Of a stretch of 64,000 nt of DNA, positions 26,969 through 58,382 are shown piece after piece. Every line of letters starts with the position of its first letter. Position 1 is the first letter of the stretch. Location of the stretch: contig CACXFB010000022.1 in assembly GCA_902766825.1 (NCBI GenBank), forward strand, positions 1 through 64,000, written 5' to 3'. Source of the stretch: an uncultured Lachnospiraceae bacterium. Its GTDB lineage: Bacteria; Bacillota; Clostridia; Lachnospirales; Lachnospiraceae. Under the pieces are notes generated by a model. The model saw only the letters and a program-made list of their open reading frames with translations, ran no database searches and had not been told where the DNA came from. The translations under genes and the position numbers were made by a program.

Positions 26969-27055
26969 AATTTGTTTACAATTAATCATATTTGAGATAA
27001 AATAATTATATGTATTGGAAAAGGTTATTAACTATAGGTTGGATTGGAGGTTTAT

Positions 27056-27517
27056 ATGGTTATTAATACAAAATGTTTCGGACAGGTGGATATAGGAGAA
27101 GAGAAGGTTATTACTTTTGATTCAGGAATATTGGGATTTGAAGAGTTTAAAAAGTATACAATTCTGTATGATAATTCAGGTGAACAGCGCTCAACTATTT
27201 CTTGGCTTCAGAGTATGGACGAGCCGGGACTGGCACTTCCGATTGTTGAACCGTGTTACATTAAGGAGGATTATAACCCTACGGTTGAAGATAGTCTTTT
27301 AGAAGGACTTGGTGAGATGAATGATGAGAATACTCTCGTGTTTGTTACACTTACAGTTCCGGGCAGCCTTAAGGATATGACAGCTAATCTTCGTGCTCCT
27401 ATTATTATCAATGCGGATACAAGAAAAGCTATGCAGATAATATTGGAGGATAACAGTTATCCAATTAAGTTTAATGTGTTCGAGGCTGTTGAAGCCATGA
27501 AAAAAAGTAAAGGATAG
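27056..27517 (+). CDS. fliW: Flagellar assembly factor FliW
   Basis: A 153-residue protein beginning MVINTKCFGQVDIGEEKVITFDSGILGFEEFKKYTIL, the FliW family start. FliW binds either flagellin or CsrA; when flagellin is low it frees... the switch by antagonising CsrA, which otherwise represses flagellin translation. ATG 27056 is used since GGAGG lies 6-7 bases upstream; the TTG at 27044 would overlap that site. csrA follows 13 bases downstream and the flagellin leader has CsrA sites, so the whole circuit is present. Confidence 0.9.
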   Translation: MVINTKCFGQVDIGEEKVITFDSGILGFEEFKKYTILYDNSGEQRSTISWLQSMDEPGLALPIVEPCYIKEDYNPTVEDSLLEGLGEMNDENTLVFVTLTVPGSLKDMTANLRAPIIINADTRKAMQIILEDNSYPIKFNVFEAVEAMKKSKG

Positions 27518-31814: not shown

Positions 31815-31867
31815 TGCTCGCAAGAGCAATCACCAGTCACAAGGATGTGGCTGTATATTCAAGGAGG
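31815..31867 (+). promoter_or_regulatory. Flagellin leader with two CsrA-type sites
   Basis: First a GNRA-loop hairpin TGCTC-GCAA-GAGCA (31815-31828). Then a hairpin AGTCACAAGGATGTGGCT (31835-31852) that presents ACAAGGATGT (31839-31848), an exact match to the CsrA consensus core ACARGGAUGU. A second site is CAAGGAGGA at 31860-31868, which is the Shine-Dalgarno sequence itself. This is the two-site arrangement of the Bacillus hag leader. Confidence 0.75.
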
Positions 31868-31874
31868 AATTATT

Positions 31875-32705
31875 ATGATAGTACAACACAACATGGCAGC
31901 TCTTAACACAAACAGACAGTTAGGAGTATCAAACACAAATCTTTCTAAGGCAACAGAGAAGTTATCATCAGGCTACAGAATCAACAGGGCCGGTGATGAC
32001 GCAGCAGGTCTTTCAATCTCAGAGAAGATGAGAGGACAGATTAGAGGTCTTGATCAGGCATCTACTAACGCTGAGGATGGTGTTTCACTTATCCAGACAG
32101 CAGAGGGTGCTTTGAATGAGATTCACTCAGTTCTTCAGAGAATGAGAGAACTTACAGTGCAGGCAGCTAACGATACTAATGTTACGGCAGATCGTAAGGC
32201 AATTGCTTCAGAGCAGTCTCAGTTACAGCAGGAGATTACACGTATTGCTTCTCAGACAGAATTCAATACTATGAAGTTGCTTAATGGTAACTTTGGAACT
32301 GCTGGAGGTGGAAAGAATCTTCAGGTTGGCGCTAATGCAAATCAGAGTATTAATGTTACCATTACTAATGTTAGTGCGAGTGGTTTAAAAGTAGATGATG
32401 TAGGTACTAAAATGACATCTTATACTGATGCAACTGCATATATTACCACTATTGATAAGGCTATAACAACAGTATCTTCTCAGAGATCTAATTTGGGTGC
32501 TATCCAGAACAGACTTGAGCATACAATTGCTAACGCTGATAACACTTCTGAGAACCTTCAGTCAGCTGAATCACGTATCAGAGATGTAGATATGGCTGAT
32601 GAGATGGTAACATACTCAAAGAATAATATCGTTCAGCAGGCTGCACAGTCAATGTTGGCTCAGGCTAATCAGTCTACACAGGGTGTATTATCATTACTCA
32701 GATAA
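31875..32705 (+). CDS. fliC: Flagellin
   Basis: A 276-residue flagellin. The N-terminus MIVQHNMAALNTNRQLGVSNTNLSKATEKLSSGYRINRAGDDAAGLSISEKMRGQIRGL and C-terminus AESRIRDVDMADEMVTYSKNNIVQQAAQSMLAQANQSTQGVLSLLR are the D0/D1 parts. The short variable centre (about residues 145-200) has many Ser, Thr and Asn, suited to the O-linked sugars made by the pseudaminic-acid genes. ATG 31875 follows AAGGAGG by 7 bases; a longer frame from 31845 would run through the regulatory hairpin. It is regulated by SigD and CsrA-FliW and followed by a terminator. Confidence 0.95.
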   Translation: MIVQHNMAALNTNRQLGVSNTNLSKATEKLSSGYRINRAGDDAAGLSISEKMRGQIRGLDQASTNAEDGVSLIQTAEGALNEIHSVLQRMRELTVQAANDTNVTADRKAIASEQSQLQQEITRIASQTEFNTMKLLNGNFGTAGGGKNLQVGANANQSINVTITNVSASGLKVDDVGTKMTSYTDATAYITTIDKAITTVSSQRSNLGAIQNRLEHTIANADNTSENLQSAESRIRDVDMADEMVTYSKNNIVQQAAQSMLAQANQSTQGVLSLLR

Positions 32706-50293: not shown

Positions 50294-50656
50294 ATGCCGG
50301 ATATTCAGATGGGTTTGGTTGAAAGCCAGTTTGCAGATATTATTTGGGCGAATGAGCCGATTAAGACTTCAGAGCTTGTAAAGATAGCGGAAGCTGATTT
50401 TACATGGAAACGTACAACAACACACACGGTTATCAAGAGGCTGTGCGAGAAAGGTCTCTTTGTTAACAACAAAGGAACAGTAACTTCGATTATCAGCAGG
50501 GATGAATTCTACTCTATGCAAAGCAGGCAGTTTGTTGAGAATTCATTTAAAGGTTCATTGCCTGCATTTATTGCCGCATTTACAAAAGCGGGTGGCATAA
50601 GTGCCAAGGAGGCGGAGGATATAAGAAAGATAATTGACAGTATTGAGGAGGAGTAG
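50294..50656 (+). CDS. blaI: BlaI/MecI-family transcriptional repressor
   Basis: A 120-residue winged-helix repressor: SQFADIIWANEPIKTSELVKIAEADFTWKRTTTHTVIKRLCEKGLFVNNKGTVTSIISRDEF, the BlaI DNA-binding domain, and a dimerisation helix at the C-terminus with the usual Asn-Phe-like cleavage region. It is 20 bases after its own operator pair and one base before the first sensor gene. It is inactivated by proteolysis when a BlaR1-type receptor signals. Confidence 0.9.
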   Translation: MPDIQMGLVESQFADIIWANEPIKTSELVKIAEADFTWKRTTTHTVIKRLCEKGLFVNNKGTVTSIISRDEFYSMQSRQFVENSFKGSLPAFIAAFTKAGGISAKEAEDIRKIIDSIEEE

Positions 50657-50657
50657 T

Positions 50658-51992
50658 ATGGAGAGTTTTAAGTATCTGATTATATGGATAGCAACAAAAG
50701 TTGTGAATAACAGTTTGCTTTCAATCAGTCTGATACTAAGCGTTATTGTTTTAAGGTTTATTATTAACAGGTTCTTTAAAGACAAGGTTGCAAGATGGGT
50801 TATGCCTGTATTGTGGGGATTGGTTGGGTTAAAGCTTATGATTCCTGTTGATTTTGGAAGGTGTATAGGTGTCACGTCAAGTGAAGAAGCACTATTCTTA
50901 ATCAGGAAGGAAAACAATCCGTTGTTTATGAGTATAGGAACGGAACAGTTACATAATTTTTTTAGTCAGAGTATTTCAAAAATCAATAGTTATAGTTTAG
51001 TAACGATGTTTGAAGTTGTGTGGAGTGTTGGTGTGGTAGCAATGTTAATCTATTGTTTTGTTGGATATGTTTGGTTAAAAAGAGGCATTAATGAAGCAGT
51101 TCCCACAGTATGGAGTAATGTTCGTATGTGCGATAAGGTTAAGCAACCATTCATTGTAGGGGTTTTTAATCCTATAGTATATATGCCTTCTGATGTTACA
51201 GACAGGGAGTTTAATTATATAGTAGAGCATGAACATGCTCATATAGAGAGAAGAGATAATATAAGAAAATTTGTTGGTTACATAATACTTTGTATTCATT
51301 GGTTTAACCCGTTGGTATGGGTGGCATATTTTCTGTTATGTAAGGATATTGAGCTTGCCTGTGATGAAAGAGCTGTTGCACATTATGATGTATCTGAGAA
51401 AAAAACTTATGCAAATATTCTTTTGGATTGGAGTGCAGGTACAAGGGCTGCTTTAGCCGGACCGCTTGCGTTTGGTGAAATCGGGGTAAAGGAACGAGTA
51501 AAAGTAGTTGTTGCTAATAAAGATTCGAAAAGAAAAACACAGATTGTATCTGCCATGATATGTGTGTTTGTAGCCTTATGTACCATATTGCACCCGGATA
51601 ACGCAAAGGCGGCTTTGTGGGCACAAAGAACTGCAGGTTTTTTTAATCATCCGACAGGATGTAAGGAGGAATCTGAAATATTTACGCAGGACGAGTTGGA
51701 TGCTGCGCTAAAAGAGGCAGTTGCTTATTGCAAGGATTGTAGAAGTATTGGCTTTTATCCGGTAAATGTATTTTATGGCGGAGATGATTGCTTTGAAAAA
51801 AAAGAGTGTTGCAGAATATATGGTGCAGATGAGAAAGATTTGATGATTTTTTATTCTACATATTATAACAGCTGGGTTGGAGGAACTTTAGTTTTAGACC
51901 AAGGGAAGTATAGTCAGTATGAGATTGAAATTATTTTATTAAGAAATGAGAAAAATGAGTGGGAAGTAGTCTCGATAAGTGAATTCGGATGA
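50658..51992 (+). CDS. BlaR1/MecR1-family M56 sensor peptidase, copy 1
   Basis: A 444-residue membrane peptidase with four membrane segments (about 5-25, 35-55, 110-135, 300-320) and the HExxH site in YIVEHEHAHIERRDN, followed by IELACDERAV. The extracellular C-terminal part (about 320-444) is short and has no penicillin-binding SxxK, so it does not sense beta-lactams directly as BlaR1 does. ATG 50658 follows GAGGAGGAG. It is coupled to blaI. The input signal is unknown. Confidence 0.8.
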   Translation: MESFKYLIIWIATKVVNNSLLSISLILSVIVLRFIINRFFKDKVARWVMPVLWGLVGLKLMIPVDFGRCIGVTSSEEALFLIRKENNPLFMSIGTEQLHNFFSQSISKINSYSLVTMFEVVWSVGVVAMLIYCFVGYVWLKRGINEAVPTVWSNVRMCDKVKQPFIVGVFNPIVYMPSDVTDREFNYIVEHEHAHIERRDNIRKFVGYIILCIHWFNPLVWVAYFLLCKDIELACDERAVAHYDVSEKKTYANILLDWSAGTRAALAGPLAFGEIGVKERVKVVVANKDSKRKTQIVSAMICVFVALCTILHPDNAKAALWAQRTAGFFNHPTGCKEESEIFTQDELDAALKEAVAYCKDCRSIGFYPVNVFYGGDDCFEKKECCRIYGADEKDLMIFYSTYYNSWVGGTLVLDQGKYSQYEIEIILLRNEKNEWEVVSISEFG

Positions 51993-52032
51993 TGTATATG
52001 TCGGATGATGATATCGGAAAGGAGGAAGATTA

Positions 52033-53382
52033 ATGAATCATATTTTATTGATTTTACAAAGAATAATTCATAACAGTATAGCTGCTGTATGGCTGATACT
52101 GATTGTGCTTGCAATAAGATTTCTTATTAACAGGTTCTTTAAGGACAAGGTCGCAAAATGGGTTATGCCAGTATTGTGGGGGATTGTTGGGATAAGGTTT
52201 TTAATACCTATTCAGATTGAAGCACTTTTTTGGAACCGTTTAGATGAATATTTAAAATATAGGGGAAGCTATCCTGGGGGAAGATATCAAGGTTTAATTG
52301 TACTTGATAATAATGGATTCGGACTTGCAAATCGGGGTTTTATAGAACTTGATAGTAAGGTTTACAACTCAGATTTGTATAAAAGAATTACCACAGATAT
52401 TATTAGTTACAGATGGTTGCGAAACTTCCTTATTGTGTGGTTAATTGGTGTAACGGTAATGACTCTGTATTTCATTTATTGTTATGTCAGACTAAAAAAA
52501 GAGATTACGGAGTCTGCACCAACAGGATGGAGTAACGTGCGTATGTGTGACAGAGTGAAACAGCCGTTTATTATCGGAGTATTTGATCCGATTGTTTACA
52601 TGCCTTCCATTGTTAGTAAAAAGGAGTTTAATTATATAGTTGAGCATGAGCATGCTCATATTGAAAGAAGAGATAATATAAGAAAGTTTATAGGTTATGT
52701 AATTCTTATTATTCATTGGTTTAACCCGTTAGTTTGGATTGCGTATTTACTTTGCTGTAAGGACATTGAGCTTGCCTGTGATGAAAGAGCAGTGTCATAT
52801 TATAGCGGCAAAGAGAAAAAAACATATGCAAATATGCTTTTAGACTGGAGCATGGGAACACCGGCTGCACTGGCTATACCATTGGCTTTTGGAGAAATAG
52901 GGGTAAAACAAAGAGTGGAAGCTCTTGTCGGTGGCAAAAAGAAAAAAGGTATGACAATTGCACTTTCGATAGGTATATGTGTTTTTGTAGCAGGATGTTT
53001 TTGTGTTAATCCATGTAATGGTCAGACATTAATATGGACAGGAATTAACAGAGCAGGTGAGACAGAGTCGCAGATATACACTAAAGAAGAGTTGGATGAA
53101 GCGGCAAGGGAGTATATTAGAACTTCAATGGCAAATGATGGTGATTATACAATGGTGATAACTTATGCCGGAGATGAGAGTGTTAAAAATGATTGGTATT
53201 CCCCAGATACTAAAGAAGCATTTAAAAATGGAAATTTTATTATTTTGGAGAATGAAATATTTAGAGGGGTTAGTTGGGAGGGGTTTGATGATGATGCAGG
53301 ACCTATTGTAAGATATGATATTGCAATTAGTAGAGTTCGTGAAGAATGGAAATGTTTGGGTAACTTACGAGGGTGGGGATGA
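52033..53382 (+). CDS. BlaR1/MecR1-family M56 sensor peptidase, copy 2
   Basis: A 449-residue tandem paralogue of the preceding protein, near identical in the core (NRFFKDKVAKWVMPVLWGIVG, EFNYIVEHEHAHIERRDNIRKF, DIELACDERAVS) but with a different N-terminal loop (about 60-115) and a different C-terminal sensor with CFCVNPC. The two share the blaI promoter. Having two sensors for one repressor suggests two inputs. AAAGGAGG precedes ATG 52033. Confidence 0.8.
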   Translation: MNHILLILQRIIHNSIAAVWLILIVLAIRFLINRFFKDKVAKWVMPVLWGIVGIRFLIPIQIEALFWNRLDEYLKYRGSYPGGRYQGLIVLDNNGFGLANRGFIELDSKVYNSDLYKRITTDIISYRWLRNFLIVWLIGVTVMTLYFIYCYVRLKKEITESAPTGWSNVRMCDRVKQPFIIGVFDPIVYMPSIVSKKEFNYIVEHEHAHIERRDNIRKFIGYVILIIHWFNPLVWIAYLLCCKDIELACDERAVSYYSGKEKKTYANMLLDWSMGTPAALAIPLAFGEIGVKQRVEALVGGKKKKGMTIALSIGICVFVAGCFCVNPCNGQTLIWTGINRAGETESQIYTKEELDEAAREYIRTSMANDGDYTMVITYAGDESVKNDWYSPDTKEAFKNGNFIILENEIFRGVSWEGFDDDAGPIVRYDIAISRVREEWKCLGNLRGWG

Positions 53383-55463: not shown

Positions 55464-55492
55464 TTGAATTTTTAAAACAATCTTGATAATAT
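55464..55492 (+). promoter_or_regulatory. Promoter of CBM21-like gene 1
   Basis: TTGAAT (55464-55469), 17-base spacer, TAATAT (55487-55492), with the leader stem 10 bases on. Confidence 0.65.
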
Positions 55493-55502
55493 ATGAAATG
55501 CG

Positions 55503-55557
55503 CTTAGGGGGAGGGAAACAATGACTTTTAAAAGTAATTTTCAGAACTTCTTCTAAG
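55503..55557 (+). promoter_or_regulatory. 5'-terminal leader hairpin of CBM21-like gene 1
   Basis: CTTAG (55503-55507) and CTAAG (55553-55557) close a loop that contains the palindrome CTTTTAAAAG followed by TAA. The position and the palindrome parallel the leaders of copies 2 and 3. Confidence 0.5.
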
Positions 55558-55586
55558 AAGAAATAACTAAATATTTGGAGGAAAAT

Positions 55587-56336
55587 ATGACAAGAACAAG
55601 TAAAGCTACAAAGATTGTAGCATTGGTAATGACACTCACAATGATTTTTGGAGTATTTAGCATTAAAGGAGCAACTGTTGCAAGTGCCGCTACAGACAGA
55701 GTAAGCCTTTATTCAGCAACTGTAACATTTGCTAAGTATGGTTATGCTGATTATGAAGTTTATGTAAAGACTAATGATAACGCAAGTGATCAGAAGGTTT
55801 ATGTTCACTATTACTATGGTGCTTATAACCAGGGTTGGGTAAAAACTGAAGCTGAATATTTCACAACACTTAGCGATGGATCAAAGATCTGGAAAGCTTC
55901 TATTGGTGGATTCCAGTGTGAGTATGCTATTGAGTATGTAGCTGACGGTCAGACATTTTGGGATAATAACAATGGACAGAATTATGCCGGCGGACAGAGA
56001 ATCGCAAGCGCTCCTATTGAACTTAAAAGATTAGGTTACCAGCGTTATATCCAGGGAGAATACAGAGTTGAGGCAATGCTTCAGAACTATGCTTATGAGA
56101 AAAATGTATTTGTAAGATACACTACAGATGGTTGGAATACATATAGTGATGTTGCACTCAGATACAGTGATACAAATGCTGACGGAACAGAGAACTGGAT
56201 TGCAAGCTTCCCAGTAGGAGATCTTGGAGATGGAACTGGTTTTGAGTATGCAGTTTGCTACGAAGTAAACGGTACACAGTACTGGGCTAATAATTTTGGT
56301 GCAAATTACGATGCAAGTTATTGTGCTCACCAGTAA
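55587..56336 (+). CDS. Secreted two-module CBM21-like protein, copy 1
   Basis: A 249-residue secreted protein with a Sec signal peptide (about 1-34, ends VASAA) and two repeats of a CBM21-like module: each has SLYSATVTFAKYGYADYEVYVKT or an equivalent, the Trp-rich turn and the terminal FWDNNNGQNY or YWANNFGANY motif. CBM21 binds starch or glycogen. No catalytic domain is present. ATG 55587 follows GGAGG; the TTG 55575 overlaps it. It is the most divergent of the three copies. Confidence 0.7.
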   Translation: MTRTSKATKIVALVMTLTMIFGVFSIKGATVASAATDRVSLYSATVTFAKYGYADYEVYVKTNDNASDQKVYVHYYYGAYNQGWVKTEAEYFTTLSDGSKIWKASIGGFQCEYAIEYVADGQTFWDNNNGQNYAGGQRIASAPIELKRLGYQRYIQGEYRVEAMLQNYAYEKNVFVRYTTDGWNTYSDVALRYSDTNADGTENWIASFPVGDLGDGTGFEYAVCYEVNGTQYWANNFGANYDASYCAHQ

Positions 56337-56374
56337 AAAATCTAGTTATTAGCATTTATAATTATTAATTAGTG

Positions 56375-56403
56375 TTGAAAATAATTATAAGTGATGCTAA
56401 TAT
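56375..56403 (+). promoter_or_regulatory. Promoter of CBM21-like gene 2
   Basis: TTGAAA (56375-56380), 17-base spacer, TAATAT (56398-56403). Confidence 0.65.
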
Positions 56404-56411
56404 ATGTTTAA

Positions 56412-56458
56412 CCCAGGGAAAAATCTTTGCAAAGTAACACGTTAACAATAACGCTGGG
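56412..56458 (+). promoter_or_regulatory. 5'-terminal leader hairpin of CBM21-like gene 2
   Basis: CCCAG (56412-56416) and CTGGG (56454-56458) enclose CTTTGCAAAGTA (56425-56436) and an inner hairpin CGTTA/TAACG. Confidence 0.55.
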
Positions 56459-56489
56459 AAAACAAAATTAAATTCGGAGGATTATAAAA

Positions 56490-57230
56490 ATGTTTAAGAC
56501 AAGTAAGTTAAAAAAAGTAGTAACAATGGTTCTTGCACTTGCATTAATCGTTGGTGTATGTGGATTTAAGGGAGCAACTCCTGTAAGCGCAGCAGCAAGC
56601 AAGGTTAGCCTTTACTCTTCAAGTGTAGCAGTAGCTTCACATGGTGGACGTACTTTTGAAGTATTTATCAAGACAACTGGTAATGCAAGCAATGAAAAGG
56701 TAACTGTTCATTATCAGTTTTTCTCAGGAGAGAACTGGAAAGATACAGAAGCTACATATGTAACAACACTTAGTGATGGTTCAAAGATTTGGAAAGCAAT
56801 TTTTTCTAGTTTTTCTTGTGAATATGCAATCAAATATGAAGCTGATGGAAGTGTATACTGGGATAACAACAATGGAAATAACTACGATGGTAGCGTAGTT
56901 ATAGGTTCAGCACCTGTAGCAGCAGACAGACTTGGTTATCAGTATGATTATAAGAACTATGAGATCAAAGCAGTAGTTAAGAATTTTGGTTACAACAAAA
57001 ACGTAGTTGTAAGATATACAACAGATGGATGGAAATCTTATAAGGAGAAAACTCTTAGCTATGATAAGACAAACAATGATGGTTCTGAAACATGGACAAC
57101 AAAAATTAATGTTGAAAATGTAGCATCTGGTGATTTTGAGTATGCTATCCGTTACAAGGTAAACGGAAATACATATTGGGCAAATTATTGTGGAGATAAT
57201 TACGATTTTAGTTATTGTATTCATCACTAA
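56490..57230 (+). CDS. Secreted two-module CBM21-like protein, copy 2
   Basis: A 246-residue protein with signal peptide MFKTSKLKKVVTMVLALALIVGVCGFKGATPVSA and two CBM21-like modules: KVSLYSSSVAVASHGGRTFEVFIKTTGNAS...YWDNNNGNNY, then YDYKNYEIKAVVKNFGYNKNVVVRYTTDGWKSY...YWANYCGDNY. It is closely related to copy 3. GGAGG precedes ATG 56490. It is probably abundant at the cell surface or in the medium; the ligand is inferred, not shown. Confidence 0.7.
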   Translation: MFKTSKLKKVVTMVLALALIVGVCGFKGATPVSAAASKVSLYSSSVAVASHGGRTFEVFIKTTGNASNEKVTVHYQFFSGENWKDTEATYVTTLSDGSKIWKAIFSSFSCEYAIKYEADGSVYWDNNNGNNYDGSVVIGSAPVAADRLGYQYDYKNYEIKAVVKNFGYNKNVVVRYTTDGWKSYKEKTLSYDKTNNDGSETWTTKINVENVASGDFEYAIRYKVNGNTYWANYCGDNYDFSYCIHH

Positions 57231-57263
57231 AATAATATCACGATTGTGATTAAATCTTAAAAG

Positions 57264-57302
57264 AGGCTGTTGTGCTTTATTAAAAGCACAATGGCCTTTT
57301 TG
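57264..57302 (+). terminator. Terminator of CBM21-like gene 2
   Basis: A long stem from AGAGGCTGTTGTGCTTT to AAAGCACAATGGCCTT, followed by TTTTT. Confidence 0.85.
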
Positions 57303-57343
57303 AAATGTTTGTAATTTTATTTATATGACATGAAAAAATACAC

Positions 57344-57372
57344 TTGATTTACCATATAAGAGGTGCTATTAT
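57344..57372 (+). promoter_or_regulatory. Promoter of CBM21-like gene 3
   Basis: TTGATT (57344-57349), 17-base spacer, TATTAT (57367-57372). Confidence 0.65.
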
Positions 57373-57382
57373 TGATTTCGTG

Positions 57383-57431
57383 CTCAGAATAGAGTAAATA
57401 GCTTTGCAAAGTAGAACGTCAAAAATCTGAG
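57383..57431 (+). promoter_or_regulatory. 5'-terminal leader hairpin of CBM21-like gene 3
   Basis: CTCAGA (57383-57388) and TCTGAG (57426-57431) enclose CTTTGCAAAGTA (57402-57413) and ACGT. The enclosed length (37 bases) equals that of copy 2. Confidence 0.55.
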
Positions 57432-57464: not shown

Positions 57465-58205
57465 ATGTTTAAGACAAGTAAGTTAAAGAAAGTATTAACA
57501 ATGGTTCTTGCACTTGCATTAATCGTAGGTGTATGTGGATTTAAGGGAGCAGCTCCTGCAAGCGCAGCAACAAGTAAAGTAAGCCTTTACTCATCAAGCG
57601 TACATTTCGCTAAGTACGGCGGACGTAGTTTTGAAGTGTTCATCAAGACAACAGGTAATGCAAGCGATGAAAAGGTTACTGTTCATTATCAGTATTTTTC
57701 TGATTCTGAATGGCAGGATGCAAATGCTGTATATATGGAAACACTTAGTGATGGATCAAAGATCTGGAGAGCATATTTCTCTAGTTTTTCTTGCAAGTAT
57801 GCTATCAAATATGAAGCTGACGGAGAAGTTTACTGGGATAACAACAACGGAAACGACTATAATGGTGACGAAGTAATCGGATCAGCTCCTGTAGCTGTAG
57901 AAAGACTTGGTTCTCAGTATGACTACAGCAACTACAAGATTAATGCAGTAGTTAAGAACTTTGCTTATAACAAGAACGTAGTTGTAAGATATACAACAGA
58001 CGGATGGAAGACATACAAAGAGCAGAACCTTAGCTACAATAAGACAAACAAAGATGGTTCTGAAACATGGACAACAAGTATTAATGTTAAAGATGTAGTA
58101 TCTGATGATTTTGAGTATGCTATCCGCTACGAGGTAAACGGAAATACATATTGGGCAAATTACTGTGGTTTCAATTACGATTTTGGATATAGTATTCATC
58201 ATTAA
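57465..58205 (+). CDS. Secreted two-module CBM21-like protein, copy 3
   Basis: A 246-residue near-duplicate of copy 2, with the same signal peptide (MFKTSKLKKVLTMVLALALIVGVCGFKGAAPASA) and modules, most differences being surface changes. Tandem duplication with separate promoters and terminators suggests dosage or ligand variation. GGAGG precedes ATG 57465. Confidence 0.7.
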   Translation: MFKTSKLKKVLTMVLALALIVGVCGFKGAAPASAATSKVSLYSSSVHFAKYGGRSFEVFIKTTGNASDEKVTVHYQYFSDSEWQDANAVYMETLSDGSKIWRAYFSSFSCKYAIKYEADGEVYWDNNNGNDYNGDEVIGSAPVAVERLGSQYDYSNYKINAVVKNFAYNKNVVVRYTTDGWKTYKEQNLSYNKTNKDGSETWTTSINVKDVVSDDFEYAIRYEVNGNTYWANYCGFNYDFGYSIHH

Positions 58206-58235
58206 GATTATAATCTGATTGTAACTCAATAACAG

Positions 58236-58275
58236 AAAGTCGTTGCACTTTATTGTAAAGTGTGGCGGCTTTTTG
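58236..58275 (+). terminator. Terminator of CBM21-like gene 3
   Basis: AAAGTCGTTGCACTTTA pairs with TAAAGTGTGGCGGCTTT around TTG, followed by TTTTTG. Confidence 0.85.
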
Positions 58276-58382
58276 TCTTATTTTCGCTTGATTTTAGAAT
58301 GACTAGTATGTAACATAATATGATGTTAAGAGTATAGCTTTTTAAGATTGCGAATGTATTTTATAAAGGAAAAGAGGATAAA

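Follow-up and report, generated by a model that had tools for sequence, protein, structure and literature searches.

To our knowledge, hairpins at the 5′ end of an mRNA that stabilize the message have been described mainly in individual model genes. The aprE gene of Bacillus subtilis encodes an abundant secreted protein. The 5′ stem-loop of the aprE leader, together with the ribosome-binding site, is important for stability (Hambraeus 2002, cited in PMC3997798), and long downstream stretches of RNA are stabilized in B. subtilis by a hairpin that lies at the 5′ end or close to it (PMC3997798). RppH of this bacterium requires at least two unpaired bases at the 5′ end and a G in the second position (PMC3997798). 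In Escherichia coli, the 5′ hairpins of ompA and papA protect from 5′-end-dependent decay (reviewed in PMC3997798, citing Emory 1992 and Bricker 1999), while the clostridial cellulosome operons use 3′ stem-loops for selective RNA processing and stabilization (PMC4423207).

Here we describe leaders that resemble these systems in a window of 64,000 nucleotides, the whole stretch of DNA that we analysed, from an uncultured Lachnospiraceae bacterium. As in ompA and papA, a hairpin is predicted at, or a few bases from, the start of the message of a presumably abundant exported protein, but sequence and host are unrelated, and decay in E. coli proceeds via RNase E, whereas the present genome encodes RNase J (643.7 bits) and RNase Y (739.2 bits), both above the cut-off. 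Moreover, stabilization is a known effect in ompA and papA, whereas for the window leaders we infer it from the sequence. With aprE, these leaders share a Firmicute 5′ stem-loop ahead of an abundant secreted protein; however, no homology was seen, and aprE is a single gene as opposed to a covarying family across genera. The cellulosome stem-loops govern the levels of secreted proteins that degrade or bind polysaccharides in Clostridia, as the window hairpins may do, and are conserved among species (PMC4423207), but they lie mainly at the 3′ ends of processed operon mRNAs, whereas the window hairpins would form the 5′ ends of single-gene mRNAs.

The three CBM21 genes are arranged in tandem on the + strand, at 55587..56336 (copy 1, 249 aa), 56490..57230 (copy 2, 246 aa) and 57465..58205 (copy 3, 246 aa), and a strong terminator-like stem-loop (58232..58276, + strand) lies 3′ of copy 3. 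Their products, of about 247 residues, look secreted, copy 1 having a signal-peptide-like N-terminus. In each protein, two stretches match the CBM21 family profile PF03370 above its curated cut-off (80.4, 66.1 and 67.1 bits for copies 1, 2 and 3, against 28.9; E 1.5e-22 for copy 1 and 4.1e-18 for copy 2). Unlike the CBM21 family, however, the window proteins stand alone as secreted double modules and have no catalytic domain, and they are probably secreted starch binders, as predicted from their sequences. Protein identity is 80% between copies 2 and 3 and 53% between copies 1 and 2. Among 44 window genes, the three CBM21 genes have the most biased codon usage (effective number of codons 35.5–36.3, against a median of 44.1), which points to very high expression. 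A flagellin-like gene (31845-32705; 38.0) ranks fourth behind them, and the flagellar cluster also holds a gene that reads as FliW-like (27044-27517). Elsewhere in the window, a BlaI/MecI-like regulator is followed by two tandem genes for BlaR1/MecR1-like membrane peptidases, as judged from the translations (50294-53382).

In agreement with the preliminary description, each gene has its own promoter with a 17-base spacer on the + strand: TTGAAT and TAATAT for copy 1 (55464..55492), a consensus shared with relatives, TTGAAA and TAATAT for copy 2 (56375..56403), and TTGATT and TATTAT for copy 3 (57344..57372), with TG preceding the −10 hexamer in copies 2 and 3. Given that a scan with the promoter consensus alone did no better than chance in a stretch so rich in A+T (19 found versus 17 expected), the window promoters rest on comparative evidence. 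A long imperfect inverted repeat at 56347-56402 (TTAGCATTTATAATTATT ... AATAATTATAAGTGATGCTAA) overlaps both the −35 and the −10 of copy 2, and could weakly terminate transcripts of copy 1.

The predicted transcript start lies seven bases past the −10 hexamer in all three copies, and the stems begin 2–5 bases past this point, which bears out, relative to the predicted start, the earlier placement of the hairpins at the 5′ end of the transcript. In copy 1, the predicted hairpin (55499..55557, + strand) is closed by arms at 55503-55513 (CTTAGGGGGAG) and 55547-55557 (CTTCTTCTAAG), with 11 pairs including G-U (E −11.0, shuffle p 0.007). The copy 2 hairpin (56410..56458, + strand) pairs CCCAG at 56412-56416 with CTGGG at 56454-56458 (E −6.4, p 0.023), and that of copy 3 (57380..57431, + strand) pairs CTCAGA at 57383-57388 with TCTGAG at 57426-57431 (E −5.9, p 0.033), these p values being against dinucleotide shuffles. 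When the fold of copy 3 is lengthened to take in the coding start, a different structure is preferred. The closing stems thus have the positions and pairing originally reported, except that the stem of copy 1 is longer than had been noted. The 37 enclosed bases reported for both copies 2 and 3 are also correct, and this equal loop length is inherited, since the two genes are recent duplicates, as their protein identity indicates. On the other hand, the palindrome CTTT-NN-AAAGTA (CTTTNNAAAGTA), which had been taken for part of a conserved core, occurs four times in the window (0.28 expected), three of them in these leaders, but in none of the 30 other leaders collected from the clade, and thus reflects local inheritance of the three window copies.

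We collected homologues from genome contigs, from the genomes holding those matches, from the family and order of the window, and from relatives of two rumen genomes; one match in the family of the window (genome G846) is the same contig region as in Lachnospiraceae bacterium RM5. This yielded 33 leaders of one protein clade, 28 of them non-redundant, from Lachnospiraceae and Oscillospiraceae-type genomes, the carriers with named records being mostly rumen or gut metagenome-assembled genomes of Lachnospiraceae and Oscillospiraceae-type 'Ruminococcus'. In the closest homologues, the layout is nearly constant: TTGATTTTT, nine bases, a TCTGNTAANAT-like −10, a G-C start and then the stem. The stem itself varies, as in CTCAGGG/CCCTGAG, CTAAGGG/CCCTTAG, CCGAGGGAG/CTCCCTCGG, ATCGGG/CCCGAT, TGTCGC/GCGACA and CACTC/GAGTG, and the loops range from 6 to 56 bases without a conserved interior block. 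In a small-loop subgroup (L009, L054, L047 and L062), the stem is retained through a register shift, so that column-by-column counting is inapplicable there. A few leaders have weak or displaced stems (L047, L062 and L095), and the best stem of L012 would extend into its own coding start.

As controls, we used 84 promoters with the same −35/−10 pattern, nearly all from genomes that carry such leaders. These promoters are real, since the reversed pattern yields almost nothing and several of them precede tRNA genes or good ribosome-binding sites. When the strongest stem starting 5–13 positions past the −10 hexamer was scored, 18 of the 28 non-redundant leaders reached a shuffle p ≤ 0.05, as compared to 5 of the 84 controls (Mann-Whitney p = 1.9e-8); taken singly, 10 of the 28 fall short of this threshold. 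The stem energy profile of the family peaks at positions 6–14 past the −10 hexamer, and this peak is absent in the controls. At most four 5′ bases are unpaired in the predicted fold of 96% of the family leaders, versus 57% of the controls, and the family start has G at +1 in 75% and C at +2 in 61% of the leaders. The idea that a terminal hairpin is a trait of every strong promoter in these genomes was ruled out by the 84 controls.

To separate co-evolution from base composition, we combined each leader's 5′ part with the 3′ parts of all the others. The true pairs summed to −192.3 kcal/mol, as compared to −90.7 ± 12.1 for the permuted ones (z = −8.4), and none of 20,000 permutations was as low; the same swap was flat in a paralogous subfamily (z +0.46) and weak in the control promoters (z −0.95). 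When ten leaders were aligned with MAFFT, leaving the structure out of account, 97.7% of the closing-stem cells pair, three of the five aligned pairs show two-sided changes, and sliding the partner abolishes the signal. The 5′ end of window copy 2 is misplaced in this alignment, and this row was counted as gaps; when placed by hand, it adds one further two-sided change, from T-A to C-G in the second pair. Both the loss of pairing upon swapping and the two-sided changes indicate that the leader pairing is the product of compensatory evolution of an RNA structure, with the pairing kept and the sequence not, which upholds the covariation proposed from the three window copies.

A maximum-likelihood tree built from 81 proteins places those of all 33 hairpin leaders in a single clade with 39 members (support 100/99), and the hairpin therefore belongs to that gene clade. 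The six other members, for which we identified no such leader, are tandem downstream copies, a truncated gene and L105 (genome G903), upstream of whose CBM21 gene no family-type promoter was identified. L105 has an inverted repeat (TCCGCCCAC ... GTGGGCGGA) directly 5′ of the start codon, which would overlap the ribosome-binding site. Related genomes thus do contain homologous leaders whose stems covary, and, as far as these comparisons reach, the predicted hairpin is restricted to one CBM21 gene clade and retained across two bacterial families. A covariance model built from ten leaders and searched in 17 genomes gave confident matches to nothing but leaders of this gene family, every one of them a training sequence, including copy 1 at 55500-55557. 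The best other matches that we read in the 17 genomes fall within or next to coding sequence and lack a promoter of this kind. The search did not reveal the element at any other place, its sensitivity being limited since the stem has no fixed sequence.

Outside the hairpin clade, the tree contains the paralogous subfamily, whose promoter is of a different type, and further Lachnospiraceae members that carry LacI-like palindromes close to the promoter. The paralogous subfamily (L058, L059, L064, L065, L072-L075, L096, L100-L103 and L108-L110) has a conserved, TTGACTTNNTTTTGTGCANGTTGTATAAT-like promoter (TTGACT...TGTATAAT) and short repeats of the GTGAG..CTCAC type at the start site, some of them loop-free (GTGAGCTCAC); as a group, its terminal hairpins are not significant (14 leaders). 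A paralogue in genome G397, L061, has an in-frame TGA. A rumen genome (G411; contigs C23, C2 and C9; L097, L099 and L100) holds nine double-CBM21 matches, mostly in one tandem array. More distant homologues (L015, L020, L021, L022, L028, L031, L032, L033 and L071) have palindromes of 10–14 bases near the promoter (GTAAGTACTTAC, GTAAGTGCTTAC, GCAAGTGCTTGC and GTAAGCGCTTGC), several of them directly past the −10. These palindromes resemble LacI-family operators, and the distant CBM21 homologues seem to be under a repressor instead of a hairpin.

Of the roles proposed for these leaders, that of an mRNA stabilizer fits best, by likeness to ompA and aprE. Each CBM21 gene would form its own transcription unit, driven by a strong sigma-A type promoter. 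The transcript would begin with 0–4 unpaired bases, with G-C as the family consensus start, and run into the hairpin, which would be followed by an A+T-rich linker of about 30–40 bases and a strong ribosome-binding site. By hiding the 5′ end, the hairpin would keep an RppH-type pyrophosphohydrolase, which needs a single-stranded 5′ end, from beginning its work, and the 5′-to-3′ exonuclease RNase J would likewise be blocked at the buried end. With decay from the 5′ end blocked, the message of the abundant starch-binding protein would be long-lived. The G-C starts that run directly into the stem, the RNase J and RNase Y genes, and the codon bias together make protection from 5′-end-dependent decay the most likely function, and we consider it probable that the element is a 5′-terminal hairpin protecting the mRNA of a very abundant secreted starch-binding protein. 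A point against protection is that a hairpin 3–4 bases from the start would leave RppH enough single strand. While the hairpin, its place relative to the promoter and the upkeep of its pairing by selection are shown by the sequence comparisons, we infer both the exact transcript start and a longer mRNA life through 5′-end protection.

The hairpin might alternatively be a site for a small RNA or an RNA-binding protein such as CsrA, placing the genes under control by carbon supply. CsrA binds GGA in hairpin loops, and the leaders offer some material for such binding: many have a purine-rich RGGG or GGA stretch in or beside the 5′ arm, a loop GGA occurs in 14 of the 27 stronger hairpins, and the window contains the FliW-like gene. 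However, such a GGA is missing from the loop in about half of the hairpins, window copy 3 among them, and loop lengths of 6 to 56 bases allow no fixed presentation. The hairpins also stop about 30–60 bases 5′ of the start codon, and the ribosome-binding site is therefore not masked. We thus regard such a binding site as unlikely. A more speculative, rather improbable reading is that the hairpin goes beyond passive capping and acts as a switchable end, opened by a dedicated protein or helicase, which would make the lifetime of the starch-binding-protein mRNA depend on carbon supply. If so, a family-specific RNA control device without a fixed sequence would travel with one secreted CBM21 clade and span two families of gut Clostridia.

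The inverted repeats could also be read as DNA operators of a transcription factor overlapping the start site, as suggested by the loop-free, LacI-family-like palindromes of some distant relatives (such as GTAAGTGCTTAC), several of which lie directly past the −10. A dimeric repressor requires fixed half-sites at a fixed spacing, but in the hairpin clade the arms are 6–56 bases apart and the stem sequences differ between genomes, and this variability of interior and loop length argues against an operator. Given also that the arms contain G-T pairs, which are formed only by RNA, we judge this reading very unlikely for the clade leaders. Equally little probability attaches to a role in initiation, whereby early folding of the RNA would aid promoter escape or clear the start site. 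The stem does begin among the earliest transcribed bases, and the promoters have the look of strong ones, with TG-extended −10 hexamers, but the distance to the 3′ arms, up to about 60 bases, is in most leaders too great for folding during escape. Finally, an undescribed ligand-sensing RNA with a conserved core, which the preliminary description had entertained on the strength of the covarying closing stem, the 37-base interiors of copies 2 and 3 and the palindrome common to the three window copies, is extremely improbable, since the interior is not conserved across relatives, the loop length is variable, the palindrome is missing from the other 30 leaders, no alternative fold with a terminator or a masked Shine-Dalgarno sequence was seen, and an Rfam search of the window and 13 relatives at gathering and relaxed thresholds gave chance matches only, in agreement with the earlier remark that no known riboswitch class matched.

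With protection of the 5′ end as the preferred reading, what is new here is that one protein clade retains a 5′ hairpin across many uncultured gut Clostridia while its letters turn over. The leader hairpin thus appears to be an unusually widely conserved example of the ompA/aprE type of 5′ hairpin, and the leaders of the clade provide a natural series for testing 5′-end-dependent mRNA decay outside Bacillus. They also suggest a portable leader for strong secretion in Clostridia that are hard to engineer. For the biology of these gut bacteria, the leaders draw attention to the small double-CBM21 proteins as predicted starch binders that are probably very abundant, whether secreted or at the surface.
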